A stretch of 64,000 nt of DNA from Pseudomonas thermotolerans DSM 14292 (GTDB lineage Bacteria > Pseudomonadota > Gammaproteobacteria > Pseudomonadales > Pseudomonadaceae), in contig NZ_KB822601.1 of NCBI RefSeq assembly GCF_000364625.1, positions 186,001-250,000 on the forward strand. Reading direction: 5' to 3'. Below the pieces are notes generated by a model that was not told the origin of the DNA, made no database searches, and saw only the letters and a program-made list of their open reading frames with translations. Of the stretch, positions 19,756 to 28,138 are shown one piece after another (position 1 is the stretch's first letter; every line of letters starts with the position of its first letter). Position numbers and translations under genes: made by a program.

Positions 19756-20961
19756 ATGATGCTGTCCGGTCCCGCCCTGCACGAGCGCTTCCAGGCCCTC
19801 GACGACTTTCTCCTCGCCCACCAGGCACTCTGGCGGCCACGGCCGTTCCGGCACCGCCGCCTACCCTGGGAGGAACGCCATCCCGAACTGGCCGCCTGGC
19901 TACGTCGCCGCACCCTGGCCGAGGCCGAAACCGCCCACGGCCAACCGGAACAGCTTGACGCCCCGGAGCCCTTCCCTCAGCTGGCGGCCCGCGCCCATGA
20001 GCTCGCCAGCCTCGGCGAACTGCCAAGCCGGGACATACTCCTACCGGAAGCGCGCTTCGCCAGCGACGTGCCCGGACGCAAGTGGCAGCAGATCCAAGCC
20101 TTCTCCCGGCACCTGCGCTTCGCCACGGAACCTCGCCACTGGCTGGACTGGTGCTCCGGCAAGGGGCACCTCGGTCACCTGCTGGCCTGGCAGACAGGCG
20201 AAACCACCTGCCTGGAACACGACCCCGCTCTAGTAGAAGCCGGCCGGCAGCTGGCCCAACGCCGCAAAGTGGCCGCACGGCATCTGCAGCAGGACGTGCT
20301 CGCCGCGGACGCCATCCTGCAGGTGCGCGCCGAACACACCCCGGTGGCCCTGCACGCATGCGGCGACCTGCACGTACGTCTGCTGCAGCTGGCCAGCCGC
20401 GCCGGCTGCCGGCAACTGGCGGTCGCCCCCTGCTGCTACAACCGCACCAGCACGCCCCGCTACCAACCCCTCTCGATCGCCGCCCGAGCCTCGCAACTAA
20501 CACTCGACCGCGATGACCTCAGCCTGCCGCTCAGCGAGACCGTCACCGCCGGCACCCGCGTCCGCCAGCAACGCGACACCTCCATGGCCCGCCGCCTGGC
20601 CTTCGACCTGCTGCAACGGGAACTACGCAGCGAGGATGCCTACCTGCCTATCCCCTCGCTGCCCAGCACCTGGCTGCACAAGGACTTCCACACCTACTGC
20701 CGCGACCTGGCCGCCCTCAAGGATCTGCCCACGCCACCCGAGCGCGACTGGCCCGCCCTGGAGGCCCAGGGGTGGCAGCGCCTGGCCGAAGTTCGCAACC
20801 TCGAACTGCTCCGCGCCCTGTTCCGCCGCCCTCTGGAACTCTGGCTGCTGCTCGACCGTGCCCTGTACCTGGAGGAGCGCGGCTACCAGGTGCGCCTCGG
20901 CCGCTTCTGCGCCCACCAGCTCAGCCCGCGCAACCTTCTGCTACTTGCCGAGCGGCCCTGA
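19756..20961 (+). CDS. predicted SAM-dependent methyltransferase
   Basis: The 401-residue protein has a Rossmann-type methyltransferase core in its middle. Motif I is unusual: LDWCSGKGHLGHLLA (about 130-144), with a Cys before the Gly-rich loop, followed by an acidic motif II (TTCLEHDPALVEAGR) and a post-core LAVAPCCYN segment. This is the arrangement in the Methyltransf_32/METTL25-like group. The substrate is not known. It stands alone, with 66 bases after the transporter and the tRNA-Thr region downstream. Confidence 0.75.
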   Translation: MMLSGPALHERFQALDDFLLAHQALWRPRPFRHRRLPWEERHPELAAWLRRRTLAEAETAHGQPEQLDAPEPFPQLAARAHELASLGELPSRDILLPEARFASDVPGRKWQQIQAFSRHLRFATEPRHWLDWCSGKGHLGHLLAWQTGETTCLEHDPALVEAGRQLAQRRKVAARHLQQDVLAADAILQVRAEHTPVALHACGDLHVRLLQLASRAGCRQLAVAPCCYNRTSTPRYQPLSIAARASQLTLDRDDLSLPLSETVTAGTRVRQQRDTSMARRLAFDLLQRELRSEDAYLPIPSLPSTWLHKDFHTYCRDLAALKDLPTPPERDWPALEAQGWQRLAEVRNLELLRALFRRPLELWLLLDRALYLEERGYQVRLGRFCAHQLSPRNLLLLAERP

Positions 20962-21222
20962 GTTACCCCCACAAACTGTGGATAACTCTGTGGAGCCTTT
21001 TGGGGCAAAACGCTGCGAGGTACGGCAGACGGGGGCGGGAAGAAACTGGCGAAAAATCACCCACACACACAGAAAAGCCAATGAAAACAGCAGCTTGTGA
21101 AAAATAGTCATATCCGCGGGAGAGAATACGGCACCTCCGTGCTAACCAAATGCCGCATGTGCATAAGCGCCGCGTCTCCCCAGCCCCTGCCACCCTCAGC
21201 TTTACTCCCCCCCGCCAACCGC
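20962..21222. other. intergenic region with a DnaA-box-like site
   Basis: No gene is supported. A 9-base match to the DnaA box on the minus strand (TGTGGATAA on plus, 20977-20985) lies 16 bases after the methyltransferase stop, followed by a partial copy CTGTGGAG. The stretch 21040-21140 is richer in A than its surroundings. Confidence 0.4.
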
Positions 21223-21228
21223 TATAAT
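21200..21228 (+). promoter_or_regulatory. sigma-70 promoter of tRNA-Thr
   Basis: A perfect TATAAT (21223-21228) is preceded after 17 bases by CTTTAC (21200-21205). A GC-rich discriminator GGCCGCCCGCC follows, as expected of a stringently controlled tRNA promoter. Confidence 0.75.
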
Positions 21229-21242
21229 GGCCGCCCGCCAAG

Positions 21243-21318
<76 letters not shown>

Positions 21319-21327
21319 TACAAATCA

Positions 21328-21357
21328 AAGGCTTACGTGAAAACGTAGGCCTTTTTT
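21328..21357 (+). terminator. intrinsic terminator after tRNA-Thr
   Basis: An imperfect inverted repeat AAGGCTTACGT / ACGTAGGCCTT with a GAAA-type loop is followed by TTTT. It lies 10 bases after the tRNA. Confidence 0.85.
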
Positions 21358-21614
21358 GTGGATAAAATCCGGGCCGGGGTAGGATTGGGGTAGGGATTTG
21401 CCACAAGTCCTTATTTTTCTTAGAAAAAATCCACCCTCCTGCCTTGTTCCCAGGCACTAGATCTTCCCTCTCCTCAACACAGCTCCATCTCCTTCACACC
21501 CACCGCCCGCGTCACACTGCCGCGATCCAGCATGGGGCAGCCTTCATGATGCACGTGTTTCTCATGCCCGGCGCCTCTTACCCAGCCTTGTAAAAACCAC
21601 CAAGGACTGCATTC
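21358..21614. other. non-coding stretch after tRNA-Thr, possible integration scar
   Basis: Two direct copies of GGGGTAGG (21376-21383 and 21387-21394) lie close to the tRNA 3' end, and a near-perfect A/T inverted repeat ATTTTTCTTAGAAAAAAT follows at 21413-21430. No integrase frame is visible. The composition is more AT-rich than the flanking genes. The position suggests a remnant of a tRNA-targeted element, but no duplicated tRNA end was found. Confidence 0.35.
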
Positions 21615-21776
21615 ATGGATGGACACTCGCCGACCCCGAAGCTGCCTATGCACCAGAACACCAGCGACCACATCCCGTGCTCCCTGACACAGGATCTGGA
21701 TCAAGCGCTGAGCGTCAGAGGCGACGCCGCACCGGATCAACTCCATGACGCCGCCCAGCTACGCCAGCAGCTTTGA
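21615..21776 (+). CDS. small ORF of unknown function (53 aa)
   Basis: ATG at 21615 is preceded by AAGGA at the correct distance. The predicted acidic, soluble protein contains SLTQDLDQALSVRGDAAPDQ and has no motif that I recognise. Its stop overlaps the possible TTG start of the next ORF, the arrangement of a translationally coupled pair. It lies between a tRNA and a damaged CRISPR array, so it may be a leftover from a mobile element. It is not recognised; its reality is moderately supported. Confidence 0.4.
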   Translation: MDGHSPTPKLPMHQNTSDHIPCSLTQDLDQALSVRGDAAPDQLHDAAQLRQQL

Positions 21777-21938
21777 CCGGGGTGCGGCATGCACTGACCT
21801 GCTCGCAGGAACTGAACAACCTGGAGAACGCCTTGCTCAGCAATTGCCTGCTTGCGCTGCGGATCCTCAGCACCGACGCAGCCACTCTGTATGCAGCCGC
21901 ATATGCGAAACAACAGGCGCCCACCTACCCCCCTGGAC
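21773..21938 (+). pseudogene. small unknown ORF truncated by the CRISPR array
   Basis: A frame beginning at TTG 21773 (or GTG 21782) reads MTGVRHALTCSQELNNLENA and continues LLSNCLLALRILSTDAATLY, a plausible helical small protein. Near 21938 it enters the partial CRISPR repeat without a stop and then runs through the array, where the sequence is clearly not protein. The natural C-terminus therefore seems to have been lost at the junction. The function is unknown; the relation to the preceding 53-residue ORF is inferred from the overlap. Confidence 0.4.
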
Positions 21939-22209
21939 GCAAGGGGCGTGACGGTTTCGAGTTTCTGTTGGACGCTGGGCTCGACGTTGTTTCAATCCAC
22001 AGCGTGACCCGACTCCAATCTGGGTGGTTTTGGCCGCATCGACCAGTTTCAATCCACACGCCCGCGAGGGGCGTGACGAGGCGCGGGAGAAAGAGCTGCT
22101 TGCCGAGCTGGTGTTTCAATCCACACGCCCGCGAGGGGCGTGACTCTGCTTCAGCGATTCGAGGCAATCCCCCAGGTGTTTCAATCCACACGCCCGCGAG
22201 GGGCGTGAC
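21938..22209 (-). CRISPR. short orphan type I-C-like CRISPR array
   Basis: Three identical 32-base repeats lie at 22046-22077, 22113-22144 and 22178-22209. On the plus strand they begin GTTTCAATCCACACG and end GAGGGGCGTGAC; the reverse complement ends GTGGATTGAAAC, the type I-C hallmark, so the array is read on the minus strand. A repeat with a 12-base internal deletion is at 21989-22008 and a partial repeat at about 21938-21952. Spacers are 33 (22145-22177), 35 (22078-22112), 37 (22009-22045) and 36 bases (21953-21988). Degeneration at the low-coordinate end marks the trailer. No cas gene is in the window, and no AT-rich leader precedes the first repeat. Confidence 0.9.
21989..22008 (-). repeat. 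internally deleted CRISPR repeat
   Basis: This copy keeps the first 13 bases and the last 7 bases of the plus-strand repeat but lacks the 12 bases between them, which include most of the hairpin (stem CGCCC/GGGCG). It can no longer fold, so a type I-C Cas5-like nuclease would probably not process it. Confidence 0.8.
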
Positions 22210-22335
22210 CTGGCTGTCGGCGATCAGGTCGGCACAGGCCGCCAGCGGGGACAGCAAGCCGAAGGACAGCAGACATGCCCCGCTCAACCGACCGGGCAGC
22301 AAGGTGTTGGCAAGGGGTATGGCAGTAGGTGCCAT
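22210..22335 (-). pseudogene. 5' remnant of an OprD-family-like porin gene, fused to the CRISPR array
   Basis: ATG at 22335 is preceded by GCGGAG at a good distance. The frame encodes a signal peptide (MAPTAIPLANTLLPGRLSGA, then a hydrophobic stretch ending PLAACA) and the mature start DLIADSQ. This resembles the N-terminus of OprD-family porins (A-D-L/F-I-x-D-S-K/Q), which should continue with a strand like LRNFYFNRDF. Instead, the next codon is the first base of the outermost CRISPR repeat. The frame stays open to 21925 only by reading repeats and spacers. A lipoprotein reading (LAAC lipobox) is an alternative. Confidence 0.6.
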
Positions 22336-22522
22336 GGTGTTCTCCGCAAGGGCTTGTTGTTGTTTTCCCGAGGGAGTATTCGCAAGATGCCGGGCAAGCC
22401 GTTATCGGCTCAGCGCAGCCACTTGCGTGAGCGCGCAATTATTCGCGGCAGGCCCTGTTACGGGGCTGCGGCGCTGGGCAGCATAGGGGCTGCGATACCT
22501 TATTTCCGGATCCGGCCACCAC
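22336..22522. promoter_or_regulatory. divergent spacer between porin remnant and multiheme cytochrome
   Basis: On the minus strand an A-rich leader (AAAACAACAACAAG, about 22347-22360) precedes the porin ribosome site, a feature common upstream of porin genes in this genus. No clear -35/-10 pair could be assigned for either direction. No ribosome site is evident before the cytochrome ATG. Confidence 0.4.
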
Positions 22523-24853
22523 ATGCTGATCACGTTGAGCCTTCTCTGGGCGCTACGCTCGTCGCGTCCCCTGCTGCGCTGGCTTCTGGCCGCCGCGCTG
22601 CTCGCTGGGCTGGTCGGCGGCTGGCCGGACAGCAACGAGGCCAGGGCCGCACAGCCGGAATTCGTCGGCAGCCAGGCCTGTGCCAGCTGTCATCTGCGCG
22701 AACACCAGGCCTGGCAGTCCTCCCAGCACGCCCAGGCCATGCAGCACGCCAGCGCCGCCACCGTGCTGGGCAACTTCGACGATGCCCGCTTCACCTACGC
22801 AGGCGTGGAAACCCGTTTCTACCAGCGCGACGGCCGCTACTTCGTCTACACCGACGGTCCCGACGGGCAACTCGCCGAATTCGAGATCCGCTATACCTTC
22901 GGCGTCGAACCGCTGCAGCAGTACCTGGTGGAGTTTCCCGACGGACGCCTGCAGGCACTGTCCATCGCCTGGGACAGCCGTCCGGCCAGCGCTGGCGGGC
23001 AACGCTGGTTCCACCTCTACCCGGACGCCGAGGTGGACCACCGCGACCCACTCCATTGGACCCGCCCGGCACAGAACTGGAACCACATGTGCGCCGACTG
23101 TCATTCCACGAACCTGCGCAAGGGCTACGACAGCAGCCGGGATCGCTTCGCCACCCGCTGGGCGGAGATCAGCGTCGGCTGCGAGGCCTGCCATGGACCA
23201 GGTTCCGCCCATCTACAGTGGGCCCGCCAGGGCGCCGGCGGAGAGGCCCACAAGGGACTGACCCTGCTGCTCGACGAGCGCAAGGGCATAAGCTGGCGGC
23301 GTAGCCTGGAGCAGCTCACCGCCCACCGCGAGTCGCCGCTGGAGAGCCGCAAGGAACAGCAGGTCTGTGCCCAGTGCCATTCGCGGCGCCTGCAGGTCGC
23401 CGAGGGCTATCACGCCGGCAAGCCACTGGCCGACCACTACCTTCCGGCACTGCTCGAACCCGGGCTGTACTACCCGGACGGCCAGCAGCGCGAGGAGGTA
23501 TTCGTCTCCGCCTCCTTCGAGCAAAGCCGCATGCATGCCGCCGGGGTAACCTGCAGTGACTGCCACGAGCCGCACAGCCAGCAACTACGCGTCCAGGGCA
23601 ATGCACTGTGCACCCAGTGCCATGCCCAGAGCCATTACGACAGCCCGCGCCATCACTTCCATGACGAAGCCTCCCCCGGCTCCCAGTGCGTGTCCTGCCA
23701 CATGCCGGAAACCACTTACATGGTGATAGACCCGCGCCGCGATCACAGCCTCAGGATTCCCCGCCCGGACCTCAGCGCCAGCCTGGATGCGCCCAATGCC
23801 TGCAACCAGTGCCATGCCGATCGCTCGACCGCCTGGGCGACGGAGGCCATCCGCAGGCATCACCCCGAGCCACGTCAGGGCTACCAGCAGTTCGCCGCCA
23901 GTTGGTCGGCGGCCGAACGGGGCCTGCCTGGAGCGACGGCGGCGCTCGCCCGTCTGCTCAGCGATCCCCGCCAGCCGGCGCTGATCCGCGCCAGCTCGGC
24001 CAGGCGCCTCGGCCAGCCGGACAGTCCCCTGGCCCTGGATGCCCTGCGCCAGGGCCTGGCCGACCCCGACGCCCAGGTACGGCGCGCCAGCCTGGGCGCC
24101 CTGGAGAGCCTCCCGGCAGCCCGCCGCGTGCAGTGGATTGCCCCGCTGCTGAGCGACCCGGTCCGCAGCGTCCGGGCCGAAGCGGCGCGTCTGCTGGCAG
24201 ACGCCCCCGTGACTGAAGAGCTGCAGGCCTCCTTCGCCAGCGCCCTGGAGGAATACGAAGCCCAACTGCGGTTCAATGCCGACCGGGCCGACGCCCGCAC
24301 CGAGCTGGCCAGCCTTCGTCGCCGCCAGGGCCTGCAGCTGGCAGCCATGGAGCAGTTGAACGCGGCCCTGCGCCTGGATCCCCTGTACGAGCCGGCCTAC
24401 GTGGAACTGGCCGACCTGCAGCGCCAGGCCGGCGACGAAGCCCGAGCCACGGCACTCCTGGAAGAAGGCCTGCGCCAGCGTCCGCAATCAGCCCTGCTGC
24501 ACTATGCCCTGGGCCTCGGCCTGGTCCGCCAACAGCGCCAGGCGGAGGCCCTGCCCCACCTGCAAAAATCCCACGAGCTGGCGCCCACGGATGCACGCTA
24601 CGGCCTGACCCTGGCCCTGGCCTTGCACCCCGGCCAGCCACGCCAGGCCCTGCAGGTCCTGGAGCGGGTCCTGAAAAGCCGTCCGCACGACACCAATCTG
24701 CTCTGGCTGGCCGCCGTGTACAGCCTGGAACAGGGCCAGGCGCCCCGTGCAGCCGGCTACGCCGAGCGTCTGCTACGCCTCAACCCGACATCGACCAAGG
24801 CTGTGACGCTGTTGAACCTGGCACGCCGGCAGGCTGACGGCCAGCCCCGATAA
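22523..24853 (+). CDS. octaheme c-type cytochrome with HEAT and TPR repeats
   Basis: The 776-residue protein has an N-terminal hydrophobic signal or anchor (about 16-33) and eight CXXCH haem sites: CASCH (53), CADCH (about 190), CEACH (220), CAQCH (282), CSDCH (344), CTQCH (363), CVSCH (389) and CNQCH (428). The C-terminal half carries HEAT-like repeats (about 470-560) and tetratricopeptide repeats (about 580-770). Proteins of this design are predicted periplasmic electron carriers or multihaem enzymes; the reaction is unknown. No partner reductase or quinol oxidase is next to it. The start has no good ribosome site, so it may lie downstream. Confidence 0.85.
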   Translation: MLITLSLLWALRSSRPLLRWLLAAALLAGLVGGWPDSNEARAAQPEFVGSQACASCHLREHQAWQSSQHAQAMQHASAATVLGNFDDARFTYAGVETRFYQRDGRYFVYTDGPDGQLAEFEIRYTFGVEPLQQYLVEFPDGRLQALSIAWDSRPASAGGQRWFHLYPDAEVDHRDPLHWTRPAQNWNHMCADCHSTNLRKGYDSSRDRFATRWAEISVGCEACHGPGSAHLQWARQGAGGEAHKGLTLLLDERKGISWRRSLEQLTAHRESPLESRKEQQVCAQCHSRRLQVAEGYHAGKPLADHYLPALLEPGLYYPDGQQREEVFVSASFEQSRMHAAGVTCSDCHEPHSQQLRVQGNALCTQCHAQSHYDSPRHHFHDEASPGSQCVSCHMPETTYMVIDPRRDHSLRIPRPDLSASLDAPNACNQCHADRSTAWATEAIRRHHPEPRQGYQQFAASWSAAERGLPGATAALARLLSDPRQPALIRASSARRLGQPDSPLALDALRQGLADPDAQVRRASLGALESLPAARRVQWIAPLLSDPVRSVRAEAARLLADAPVTEELQASFASALEEYEAQLRFNADRADARTELASLRRRQGLQLAAMEQLNAALRLDPLYEPAYVELADLQRQAGDEARATALLEEGLRQRPQSALLHYALGLGLVRQQRQAEALPHLQKSHELAPTDARYGLTLALALHPGQPRQALQVLERVLKSRPHDTNLLWLAAVYSLEQGQAPRAAGYAERLLRLNPTSTKAVTLLNLARRQADGQPR

Positions 24854-24968: not shown

Positions 24969-26777
24969 ATGACCACCGCCCCGCCCCGTCGTCCCCGCTG
25001 GCGCAGCCTGATCCTGCTGGCCCTGCTGCTCGCGCCGCTGCTCTGGCCGCTACAGCAGCTCGCCGAGCGCTACTACAGCACCCAGCTGGCCGAGCAGAAC
25101 CGCCAGACCCTCGATCTCTACGTCGCCAACCTGCTGGGCACGCTGCGGCGCTTCGAAGTGCTGCCGGCGATCCTCGGCGGCCTGCCGGCGCTGCGCGACC
25201 TGCTCTCCGAGCCCGCTGACCCGGCGCGGGTCGACGCCGCCAACCGACTGCTCACCGAGGTGCGCGGCGCCACCGGCGCCGACGTGATGTACCTGCTCGC
25301 CCCCAGCGGGCTGACCCTGGCCAGCTCGAACTGGGACCAGCCGGACAGCTTCGTCGGCCTCAACTTCTCCTTCCGGCCCTATTTCCAGGAGGCGCTGTCC
25401 GGCCGGCTGACCGGCTTCTTCGGCCTCGGCACCACTTCGGGACGGCGCGGCTATTACTATGCGGCGCCCATCGGCGAGCCCGGGCATGTGCTCGGCATCC
25501 TGGTGGTCAAGGTCAACCTGGACGACGCCGAGAAGCTGTGGGGCAACACCCCGGAACAGGTGCTGGTCACCGACGGTCACGGCGTGGTGATCCTCACCTC
25601 GCGCGCCGACTGGCGGTTCCGGGCCAGCCGCCCGCTGAGCGCCGAGGAACACCGGCGGATCGCCGCCGAGCAGCCCTACCCGACCCTCGATCCCCTGCCC
25701 CTGGCGCTCGACGCCAACGCCTGGCTGATCCAGAGCCGCGAGCTTGCCGAAACCGGCTGGACGGTGAGCATCCTCGCCCCGCATCGCCTGGTCGACCGTC
25801 CGGTGCGCACCGCGGTGGCGATCGGCGGCGCGGCGCTGCTGGTGCTGCTCCTGCTCCTCGGCCTGCTTCTGCAGCGCCGCCGCCACTACCTGGAGCGCAT
25901 CGCCCTGGACGCCCAGGCGCGCCGCGAGCTGGAGCTGCGCGTGCTGGAGCGCACCCGCGACCTGGAGACCCTGAACAGCCGCCTCAAGGAGGAGGTGCTG
26001 GAGCGCGAGCAGGCCCAGCAAGAGCTGATCCGCGCCCAGGACGAGCTGGTCCAGGCTGGCAAGCTGTCGGCCCTCGGCACCATGAGCGCGAGCATCAGCC
26101 ACGAGCTCAACCAGCCGCTGGCAGCGATCCGCAGCTACGCGCAGAACGGCGAGGTGCTGCTCGACCACGGGCGCGTCGAGGAGGCGCGCGGCAACCTGCG
26201 TTCGATAGGCGAGCTGACCGGGCGCATGGCGTCGATCATCGCCCACCTGCGCGCCTTCGCCCGCCGCGACCACCACGCCCCGGAGCGGGTCGCCCTGCAG
26301 CCGGCCATCGACGACGCCCTGGCGCTGCTCGCCAAGCGCCGCCGGGCGCTGGACGTGGAACTGATCCGCGACCTGCCGGAAGCCACCTTCTGGGTGCAGG
26401 CCGGCGAGACCCGCCTGCGCCAAGTGCTCGGCAACCTGCTGGCCAACGCCCTCGACGCGCTGAGCGAGAAGGCCCCTCCGCGGCGCATCTGGATCAGCGC
26501 CAGCCAGGACGAGGAGGGCGTGCGCCTGACTCTGCGCGACAACGGCCCGGGGTTCAGCGCCGAGGCCCTGGTCCACGCCCGTGAGCCCTTCTTCACCACC
26601 AAGACCAGCACCCAGGGGCTGGGCCTCGGCCTGGCCATCTGCGATACCCTGATGCGCGCACTCGGCGGCGAACTGCTGCTGGACAATCACCCCGAAGGCG
26701 GCGCTCTGCTGACCCTGCGCCTGCGCAATGCCGAGCCCGGCGCCGCCCTGCCGTCTCCCGAGGACACCTTTGCATGA
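24969..26777 (+). CDS. dctB: C4-dicarboxylate sensor histidine kinase DctB-like
   Basis: The 602-residue kinase has two membrane spans (about 14-32 and 280-302) around a periplasmic double-Cache sensor that includes NFSFRPYFQEALSG, the ligand loop typical of DctB. A coiled coil is followed by the H-box SASISHELNQPLAAI (phosphorylated His), an N-box LANALDAL, and G-boxes DNGPGF and GLGLGLAI. It overlaps the response regulator by four bases. In P. aeruginosa this pair senses succinate, fumarate and malate and controls dctA and dctPQM; the dctPQM genes are absent here. Confidence 0.9.
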   Translation: MTTAPPRRPRWRSLILLALLLAPLLWPLQQLAERYYSTQLAEQNRQTLDLYVANLLGTLRRFEVLPAILGGLPALRDLLSEPADPARVDAANRLLTEVRGATGADVMYLLAPSGLTLASSNWDQPDSFVGLNFSFRPYFQEALSGRLTGFFGLGTTSGRRGYYYAAPIGEPGHVLGILVVKVNLDDAEKLWGNTPEQVLVTDGHGVVILTSRADWRFRASRPLSAEEHRRIAAEQPYPTLDPLPLALDANAWLIQSRELAETGWTVSILAPHRLVDRPVRTAVAIGGAALLVLLLLLGLLLQRRRHYLERIALDAQARRELELRVLERTRDLETLNSRLKEEVLEREQAQQELIRAQDELVQAGKLSALGTMSASISHELNQPLAAIRSYAQNGEVLLDHGRVEEARGNLRSIGELTGRMASIIAHLRAFARRDHHAPERVALQPAIDDALALLAKRRRALDVELIRDLPEATFWVQAGETRLRQVLGNLLANALDALSEKAPPRRIWISASQDEEGVRLTLRDNGPGFSAEALVHAREPFFTTKTSTQGLGLGLAICDTLMRALGGELLLDNHPEGGALLTLRLRNAEPGAALPSPEDTFA

Positions 26778-28138
26778 CTGCCATCCCCGACGCCCAGGTT
26801 CTGCTGATCGACGACGACCCCCACCTGCGCCAGGCGCTGGCCCAGACCCTGGACCTCGCCGGCCTGCGGGTCGCCGCCCTGGAGGACGCCCGCGGCGTCG
26901 CCGAGCGACTCGACCGCGACTGGCCGGGGGTGGTGGTCAGCGACATCCGCATGCCCGGGGTGGACGGCCTGCAGCTGCTCGAACAGCTGCACGCCCGCGA
27001 CCCGGAGCTGCCGGTGCTGCTGATCACCGGCCACGGCGACGTGCCCCTGGCGGTGCAGGCGATGCGCGCCGGGGCCTACGACTTCCTGGAGAAGCCGTTC
27101 GCCAACGAGGCGCTGCTCGACGGCGTGCGCCGCGCCCTGGAGCTGCGCCGTCTGGTCCTCGACAACCGCAGCCTGCGCCTGGCCCTGGCCGACCGCCGCC
27201 AGCTGGAGGCGCGGCTGCTCGGCCAGTCACCGGGCGTGCAACGCCTGCGCGAACAGATCGGCGCCCTGGCAGCGATCAACACCGACGTGCTGATCCTCGG
27301 CGAGACCGGCTCCGGCAAGGAGGTGGTGGCACGCGCTCTGCACGACCTGTCGGCGCGCCGCGCCGGCCCCTTCGTGGCGATCAACGCCGGCGCCCTGGCC
27401 GAGTCGGTGGTGGAGAGCGAGCTGTTCGGCCATGAGCCGGGGGCCTTCACCGGCGCGCAGAAGCGCCGCATCGGCAAGTTCGAATTCGCCAACGGCGGCA
27501 CCCTGTTCCTCGACGAGATCGAAAGCATGAGCCTGGACGTGCAGGTCAAGCTCCTGCGCCTGCTCCAAGAGCGGGTGGTCGAGCGCCTCGGCGGCAACCA
27601 GTCGATCCCCCTGGACATCCGGGTGATCGCCGCCACCAAGGAGGACCTGCGCCAGGCCGCCGAGCAGGGCCGCTTCCGCGCCGACCTCTACTACCGGCTT
27701 AACGTCGCGCCACTGCGCATCCCGCCGCTGCGCGAGCGCGGCGACGACATCCTCCTGCTGTTCCAGCACTTCGCCGCCAAGGCCGGCGAGCGCCACGGCC
27801 TGCCGCCGCGCAGCCTGCTGCCGGCACAGCGCGCCGAGCTGCTTCGCCACGCCTGGCCGGGCAACGTGCGCGAGCTGCAGAACTGCGCGGAACGCTTCGC
27901 CATCGGCCTGGACCTCGAGCTGCCGCTGGACGGCCCCGCGCCCACCGAACCGGCGCCGGCCGCCCAGGGCCTCAGCGCCCAGGTGGAGGCCTACGAGCGC
28001 AGCCTGATCCTTGCCGAGCTGGCCAACCCGCACCCCTCGCTGCGCAGCCTCGCCGAGGCCCTCGGCATCCCGCGCAAGACCCTCCACGACAAGCTGCGCA
28101 AGCACGGCCTGAGCTTTTCCGGACCGAGCGGCGACTGA
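26774..28138 (+). CDS. dctD: sigma-54-dependent response regulator DctD-like
   Basis: The receiver domain (about 8-120) has the acidic pocket DDD, the phospho-acceptor Asp in VVVSDIRMPG and Lys in FLEKPF. The AAA+ domain (about 150-385) has Walker A GETGSGKE, the sigma-54 contact loop GAFTGA, and Walker B GGTLFLDEIE. A Fis-type DNA-binding domain ends the 454-residue protein (SLAEALGIPRKTLHDKLRKH). It is co-transcribed with dctB. Its natural target promoter was not found in the window. Confidence 0.93.
   Translation: MTAIPDAQVLLIDDDPHLRQALAQTLDLAGLRVAALEDARGVAERLDRDWPGVVVSDIRMPGVDGLQLLEQLHARDPELPVLLITGHGDVPLAVQAMRAGAYDFLEKPFANEALLDGVRRALELRRLVLDNRSLRLALADRRQLEARLLGQSPGVQRLREQIGALAAINTDVLILGETGSGKEVVARALHDLSARRAGPFVAINAGALAESVVESELFGHEPGAFTGAQKRRIGKFEFANGGTLFLDEIESMSLDVQVKLLRLLQERVVERLGGNQSIPLDIRVIAATKEDLRQAAEQGRFRADLYYRLNVAPLRIPPLRERGDDILLLFQHFAAKAGERHGLPPRSLLPAQRAELLRHAWPGNVRELQNCAERFAIGLDLELPLDGPAPTEPAPAAQGLSAQVEAYERSLILAELANPHPSLRSLAEALGIPRKTLHDKLRKHGLSFSGPSGD

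Follow-up and report, generated by a model that had tools for sequence, protein, structure and literature searches.

How does a CRISPR array come to be joined, at the first base of its first repeat, to the start of a porin gene, and is such an arrangement a new way of expressing CRISPR RNA or the scar of a lost locus? The question is raised by a short array in the window, by which we mean the whole 64,000-nt stretch of the Pseudomonas thermotolerans DSM 14292 genome that was analysed. The original prediction, made from the letters of this DNA, had seen here a leaderless CRISPR transcript under the control of a porin promoter.

A degenerate type I-C array

The array is about 272 bp long, is CRISPR sequence throughout, and has the make-up of CRISPR arrays in general, that is, direct repeats of ~21-47 nt and unique spacers of like size. 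Its three perfect 32-nt copies, set at near-regular spacing, are not due to chance. The features of the array and of its flanks are the following, in the coordinates of the window:

19756-20961, plus strand: methyltransferase gene, also found upstream of tRNA-Thr in four relatives (L005, L006, L007 and L014)
21243-21318, plus strand: tRNA-Thr(TGT), left flank
21669-21919, plus strand: small-gene remnant downstream of tRNA-Thr, with homologues in L005, L006 and L014
21938-21952, minus strand: R5, 15 nt, only the 5' half of the terminal repeat
21953-21988, minus strand: spacer S4, 36 nt, 29/36 positions matched in an IMG/VR contig, in its P2-like major capsid gene
21989-22008, minus strand: R4, 20 nt, with an internal deletion that takes out the hairpin
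22009-22045, minus strand: spacer S3, 37 nt
22046-22077, minus strand: R3, same sequence as R1 (genome repeat search)
22078-22112, minus strand: spacer S2, 35 nt, phage matches at chance level
22113-22144, minus strand: R2, same sequence as R1 (genome repeat search)
22145-22177, minus strand: spacer S1, 33 nt
22178-22209, minus strand: R1, intact type I-C repeat, leader-proximal (sequence, genome repeat search, hairpin of -12.8 kcal/mol)
22210-22335, minus strand: OprD-like porin stub with start codon, signal peptide and, by eye, seven mature residues (alignment, synteny)
22336-22522, minus strand: 5' region between the stub and the divergent cytochrome gene, partly conserved in four relatives
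22523-24853, plus strand: multihaem c-type cytochrome with TPR repeats, right flank

The hairpin of the intact repeat has a folding energy of -12.8 kcal/mol (z-score -1.91); R4, the shortened one, forms none (-0.7), and the two degenerate repeats, R4 and R5, both lie at the trailer end of the array. At up to three mismatches the repeat has three copies in the genome, all of them in the array, and at the same threshold it was absent from the 397 other genomes of the genus that were searched.

The repeat has the form of a type I-C repeat, with the GTC start and the TGGATTGAAAC end shared by the arrays that lie downstream of Csd1/Cas8c, and on the Csd1 strand, in four of five comparator loci; with the pattern applied, no array came up in the fifth (L149), which was left out of the count. 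These five loci come from the 5 genomes in which Csd1/Cas8c was present among 95 searched, a set that counts the window's own genome, itself negative. The four comparator arrays downstream of Csd1 on the same strand, together with the degenerate repeats at the far end, support the minus strand as the orientation of the window array, in agreement with the orientation relative to the porin that had been claimed for it.

The junction with the porin

The porin start codon at 22335 has GGAG upstream and opens MAPTAIPLANTLLPGRLSGACLLSFGLLSPLAACADLIADSQ, and the base that follows is base 1 of the repeat: R1 (22209-22178) begins directly after the stub (22335-22210), joined to it base-to-base just as had been proposed. 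The stub has 42 residues, with the signal-peptide cleavage and the seven mature residues read by eye and not by a predictor. On its own it has no Pfam match, it stops where the OprD domain of the orthologue in L144 starts, and its protein matches are weak (E 0.003-0.005 among the relatives' loci, 6.8e-5 against two loci). The porin identity is drawn from position and from the syntenic orthologues; judged by orthology only, the stub is a porin remnant.

When the DNA of the window is aligned with that of four relatives (L021, L023, L024 and L144), conserved blocks appear ahead of the start codon and within the signal-peptide region, and the alignment reaches the repeat edge. Here GACAGCCA before the junction is common to all four relatives, the last base before the junction is G in three of them and C in L023, and past the junction the relatives read CTGAAC or CTCAAC where the window reads GTCACG. 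What adjoins R1 is therefore 126 nt that align with the relatives' porin coding sequence, and not a leader. Both the missing leader and the porin-like nature of 22210-22335 are in this way borne out, the latter from syntenic orthologues of which the L144 copy is an OprD. A+T content is a weak test for a leader because its contrasts vary among the comparators, the porin alignment being the stronger test: the 200 nt before the first repeat have 37.5% A+T against 32.6% for the whole window, compared with 47.0% against 34.2% for the locus in G054, a type I-C genome of the same genus, and with 65.0 against 59.8%, 56.0 against 56.2% and 66.0 against 49.5% in the other three I-C comparators.

The exact repeat-edge junction is the one odd feature of the locus. 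A random breakpoint would fall on a repeat start once in 54 to 68 times (four or five starts in ~272 bp), and these odds of about 1 in 60 are not a test, as the finding was chosen for that very feature. Matches spanning the junction in two genomes of the same genus (G024 and G001) were rejected as chance matches in unrelated genes.

The flanking genes in relatives

Eight loci were inspected on the cytochrome side: six neighbourhoods (L021-L026) of the 80 cytochrome loci kept, plus G242 and G284, which were taken from 62 matched genomes, the window's own included. A complete porin divergent from the cytochrome relative is present in four of the eight, namely L021 (Pseudomonas oligotrophica), L023 (Stutzerimonas stutzeri TS44), L024 (Pseudomonas sp. 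MMS21 TM103) and L144 (G242), the porin of the last being an OprD (PF03573, 2.5e-135) with 76% identity to that of L021. A sulfatase follows the porin in L021, L023 and L144, with 85% identity between the L023 and L144 proteins, and the L024 contig stops ~320 bases past the porin. We also record, as an arrangement in its own right, the OprD-like porin and sulfatase pair divergent from a multihaem cytochrome (L144, 3685-6964, as well as L021 and L023).

The pairing of porin and cytochrome is not universal, four loci (L022, L025, L026 and L145) having no adjacent porin. Read by eye, L022 has no porin-length frame beside the cytochrome and does have a sulfatase-like frame, L025 has a different frame beside the cytochrome and a sulfatase-like frame at the contig edge, and L026 offers nothing beyond a sulfatase-like frame; over the 12 kb covered, L145 (G284) matched neither the porin nor the sulfatase. 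The window's genome itself has no orthologue of the porin, only paralogues at 34-46% identity (ten matches, two being parts of one frame), and none of the sulfatase, for which three partial matches at 29-33% identity were obtained. The expectation that close relatives would show porin and array intact held for the porin, in the four loci above, and failed for the array: no intact I-C locus was present at this site among the relatives searched, which represent part of the genus. Beyond the cytochrome gene, the window carries a Cache-domain sensor kinase and a sigma-54 activator response regulator (24969-28138), a pair that had no tblastn match in the stretches of L021-L026 examined.

The left flank matches the tRNA-Thr neighbourhood of relatives, a setting other than that of the right flank. 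In L005, L006 and L014 the tRNA-Thr gene is followed by the small gene, whose L014 copy has no Pfam match, and then by a regulator-like gene. The remnant in the window has an internal frame change and no stop codon at the relatives' gene end, and its homology stops at 21919, just short of the half repeat R5. Lost loci are commonly met in islands next to tRNA genes. Further downstream of tRNA-Thr in G027 (L119, 38-2200) lies a frame of 720 residues that is relaxase-like by eye, and on this ground the tRNA-Thr site may be one where mobile islands insert.

cas genes and transcription

Cas5d is the nuclease that cleaves I-C repeats, and Cas6e is specific to its own repeats. The original prediction had looked to type I-C cas genes elsewhere in the genome to process the RNA, and neither Cas8c (Csd1; E up to 0.001) nor the pre-crRNA nuclease Cas5d (E up to 1) had a match in the window's genome, whose completeness is given as 100. 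This genome-wide search covered Cas8c, Cas5d and Cas1, and the Cas1 match sits in a type I-E locus. The genome's own CRISPR system is of this type, with Cas1e, Cas5e, Cas7e, Cas6e, Cse2, Cse1 and a Cas3 (NCBIfam), and its locus (L108, contig C6) contains a long array with a repeat that differs from that of the window. Within the window, none of the plus-strand frames taken from the I-C locus of G054 had a match at E up to 0.01, and the window array, as an orphan array, has no matching cas genes within 10 kb.

In a scan of 21200-22700 the minus strand upstream of the array lacked any sigma-70-like site, and no terminator-like site turned up; shuffles of the same stretch gave, for both strands together, 0.4 sigma-70-like and 1.4 terminator-like sites. 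The partly conserved 5' region may hold a non-sigma-70 promoter, and a sigma-54 activator gene is near (26774-28138). A statement on the -35 region of the porin promoter was dropped, that block varying among the relatives too. No stop codon interrupts the 136 codons that run from the porin ATG through the array; we rejected the idea that this 136-aa frame is coding, as 23% of 20,000 spacer shuffles stay open too. CRISPR DNA, when translated, is known to yield spurious proteins, according to the available part of PMC7673337. Since the I-C nucleases were not found, putative transcription from the porin side is unlikely to give crRNAs.

Spacers and their targets

Judged by its match, S4 may be a genuine phage spacer. 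One IMG/VR contig (L121) contains an exact 21-nt match to it, extending to 29/36 positions over the full spacer, and 30 shuffles of S4 reached 19-24 matches in the same contig. The match falls in a major capsid gene of the P2 family (PF05125, 7.1e-33), in the frame of which S4 gives NVEPSVQQKLET versus AVEPSVQQTLEN. The usual I-C flank is TTC; that of the S4 target is TTT, and the first bases mismatch. A further, weak match of S4 is to the portal gene of a Vibrio phage (E 5).

For S2 there were 19 phage records with matches; the six listed comprise five Pseudomonas records, matched over 22 nt (E 4), and a Mycobacterium phage in which 19 bases match exactly (E 0.4). Over its full length S2 matches two Pseudomonas phages at 24/35 positions, without a TTC flank, which places it at chance level, and the phage searches with S1 and S3 gave no useful match. 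Against the host genome, the spacers found the array itself and a neighbouring repeat, then five matches with E 0.06 to 0.73; a strong self-target is absent from the window's genome. Self-targeting was considered as the cause of a deletion and discarded, the best spacer match in L021-L024 being 23/35 (S2 in L023), which is shuffle level. The locus as a whole had no match in the phage collection, and in plasmids it matched four records, one in a cytochrome gene and three, from Nitratidesulfovibrio, over the array region, with no annotated feature at the matched site.

Origin of the locus

We consider it very probable that the locus is what a deletion left of a type I-C locus, now lost, beside tRNA-Thr. 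A type I-C CRISPR-Cas locus would once have adjoined the tRNA-Thr gene, with the leader and the cas operon between the array and the sulfatase-porin pair; given the minus-strand orientation of the array, leader and cas genes would have lain at higher coordinates, between array and porin. One deletion, or a few, would then have removed the leader, the cas genes, the sulfatase and the porin past codon 42, running from the leader-repeat edge to that codon and fusing codon 42 to base 1 of the repeat. A single deletion is the simplest account. The original idea of a deletion that took away the leader along with the remaining porin sequence is supported; the deletion itself, in preference to an insertion, and the former presence of an I-C cas operon at the site are what we infer and did not observe. 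The array would have decayed after the deletion, unless its far end was already decaying before. Without leader and I-C proteins it should gain no new spacers, and RNA from the porin side, if any, would be unprocessed read-through, as Cas5d was not found.

Other histories would lead to the same arrangement. An array fragment might have moved in as filler DNA when a break was repaired by joining the tRNA-Thr and the porin sides. Such an event would fit two flanking genes that are both broken (the small gene at its end, the porin at its start), an insert of just ~272 bp that is wholly CRISPR, and relatives that, where inspected, have no I-C locus at the site. However, no donor array is left in the genome and tRNA-side islands are the usual home of lost loci, and we regard this origin as unlikely; that an I-C operon never stood at the site, as it would require, we also think unlikely. 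Quite improbable, in our view, is that the junction was made by Cas1-Cas2 as a product of adaptation, while the cas genes were still present. Cas1-Cas2 attaches DNA ends to a repeat at its 5' edge; the 3' end of a chromosomal break within the porin could have been attached in this way to the first repeat, much as in half-site spacer integration, with the leader cut off and a chromosomal deletion as the result. If this were true, the locus would be the fossil of a rearrangement made by Cas1-Cas2.

Hardly credible is the proposal that the porin promoter drives a functional leaderless CRISPR transcript which is processed and used. The fusion is indeed direct and in the right orientation, three intact repeats keep their hairpin, the frame is open from the ATG through the array, and 21200-22700 contains no terminator-like site where shuffles expect 1.4. 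Nevertheless, Cas8c and Cas5d were not found, the repeat of the type I-E array in this genome is a different one, the window array is degenerate and the R4 hairpin lost, no promoter-like site of the sigma-70 kind was seen upstream on the minus strand, there is no strong self-target, and the open frame recurs in 23% of the spacer shuffles; the working transcript of the original prediction is not supported. The junction might, finally, be an assembly error, the assembly being a draft of 75 contigs, but it is internal to a contig of at least 250 kb, and a 32-nt repeat that occurs in the array only should be too short to mislead most assemblers, so that we give this explanation almost no chance.

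Comparison with known systems

The locus that very probably remained after a deletion is thus probably a relic and not a new way of running CRISPR. The literature searches, only some of which were directed at leaderless or externally driven arrays, listed no porin-CRISPR fusion, a weak negative given that most subscription papers lay outside them. The novelty claimed for the locus does not otherwise stand: isolated arrays without cas genes, some of them expressed but unprocessed, are described as probable remnants in the available parts of PMC5294841 and PMC6737040, and the latter, to the same extent, cites the existence of leaderless systems. What we describe is a further orphan-array remnant, with a neat scar. 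It shows how an array, once severed from its leader, can come to lie behind the 5' region of some other, unrelated gene, and it is a warning that scars of this sort can be mistaken for new control systems. Should exact junctions of this kind recur across many genomes, this would point to a spacer integrase able to rearrange chromosomes.

Set beside the systems already described, the window array shows the following similarities and differences: (i) Like orphan arrays, it has few repeats and no companion cas genes, and its repeat is unlike that of the genome's complete system, which is one of the two grounds for calling an array orphan in the available part of PMC5294841, spacer turnover being the second; unlike them, it is fused on its leader side to a protein-coding stub, at the repeat edge. 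(ii) Like the leaderless arrays cited in the part of PMC6737040 available, it has no upstream leader; unlike them, it has in the porin junction an explanation for this loss. (iii) With the Pseudomonas type I-C loci, namely that of G054 and that of P. aeruginosa ST277, where the I-C system is carried by the pKLC102-like element PAGI-34 (PMC7092672, available part), it shares a 32-nt repeat with a GTC start and a GTGGATTGAAAC end, and the repeat period of ~65-68 nt is that of the G054 array. In contrast to the G054 locus, which has at least 33 intact repeats, the window array retains three, and has neither a leader nor Cas8c or Cas5d beside it.
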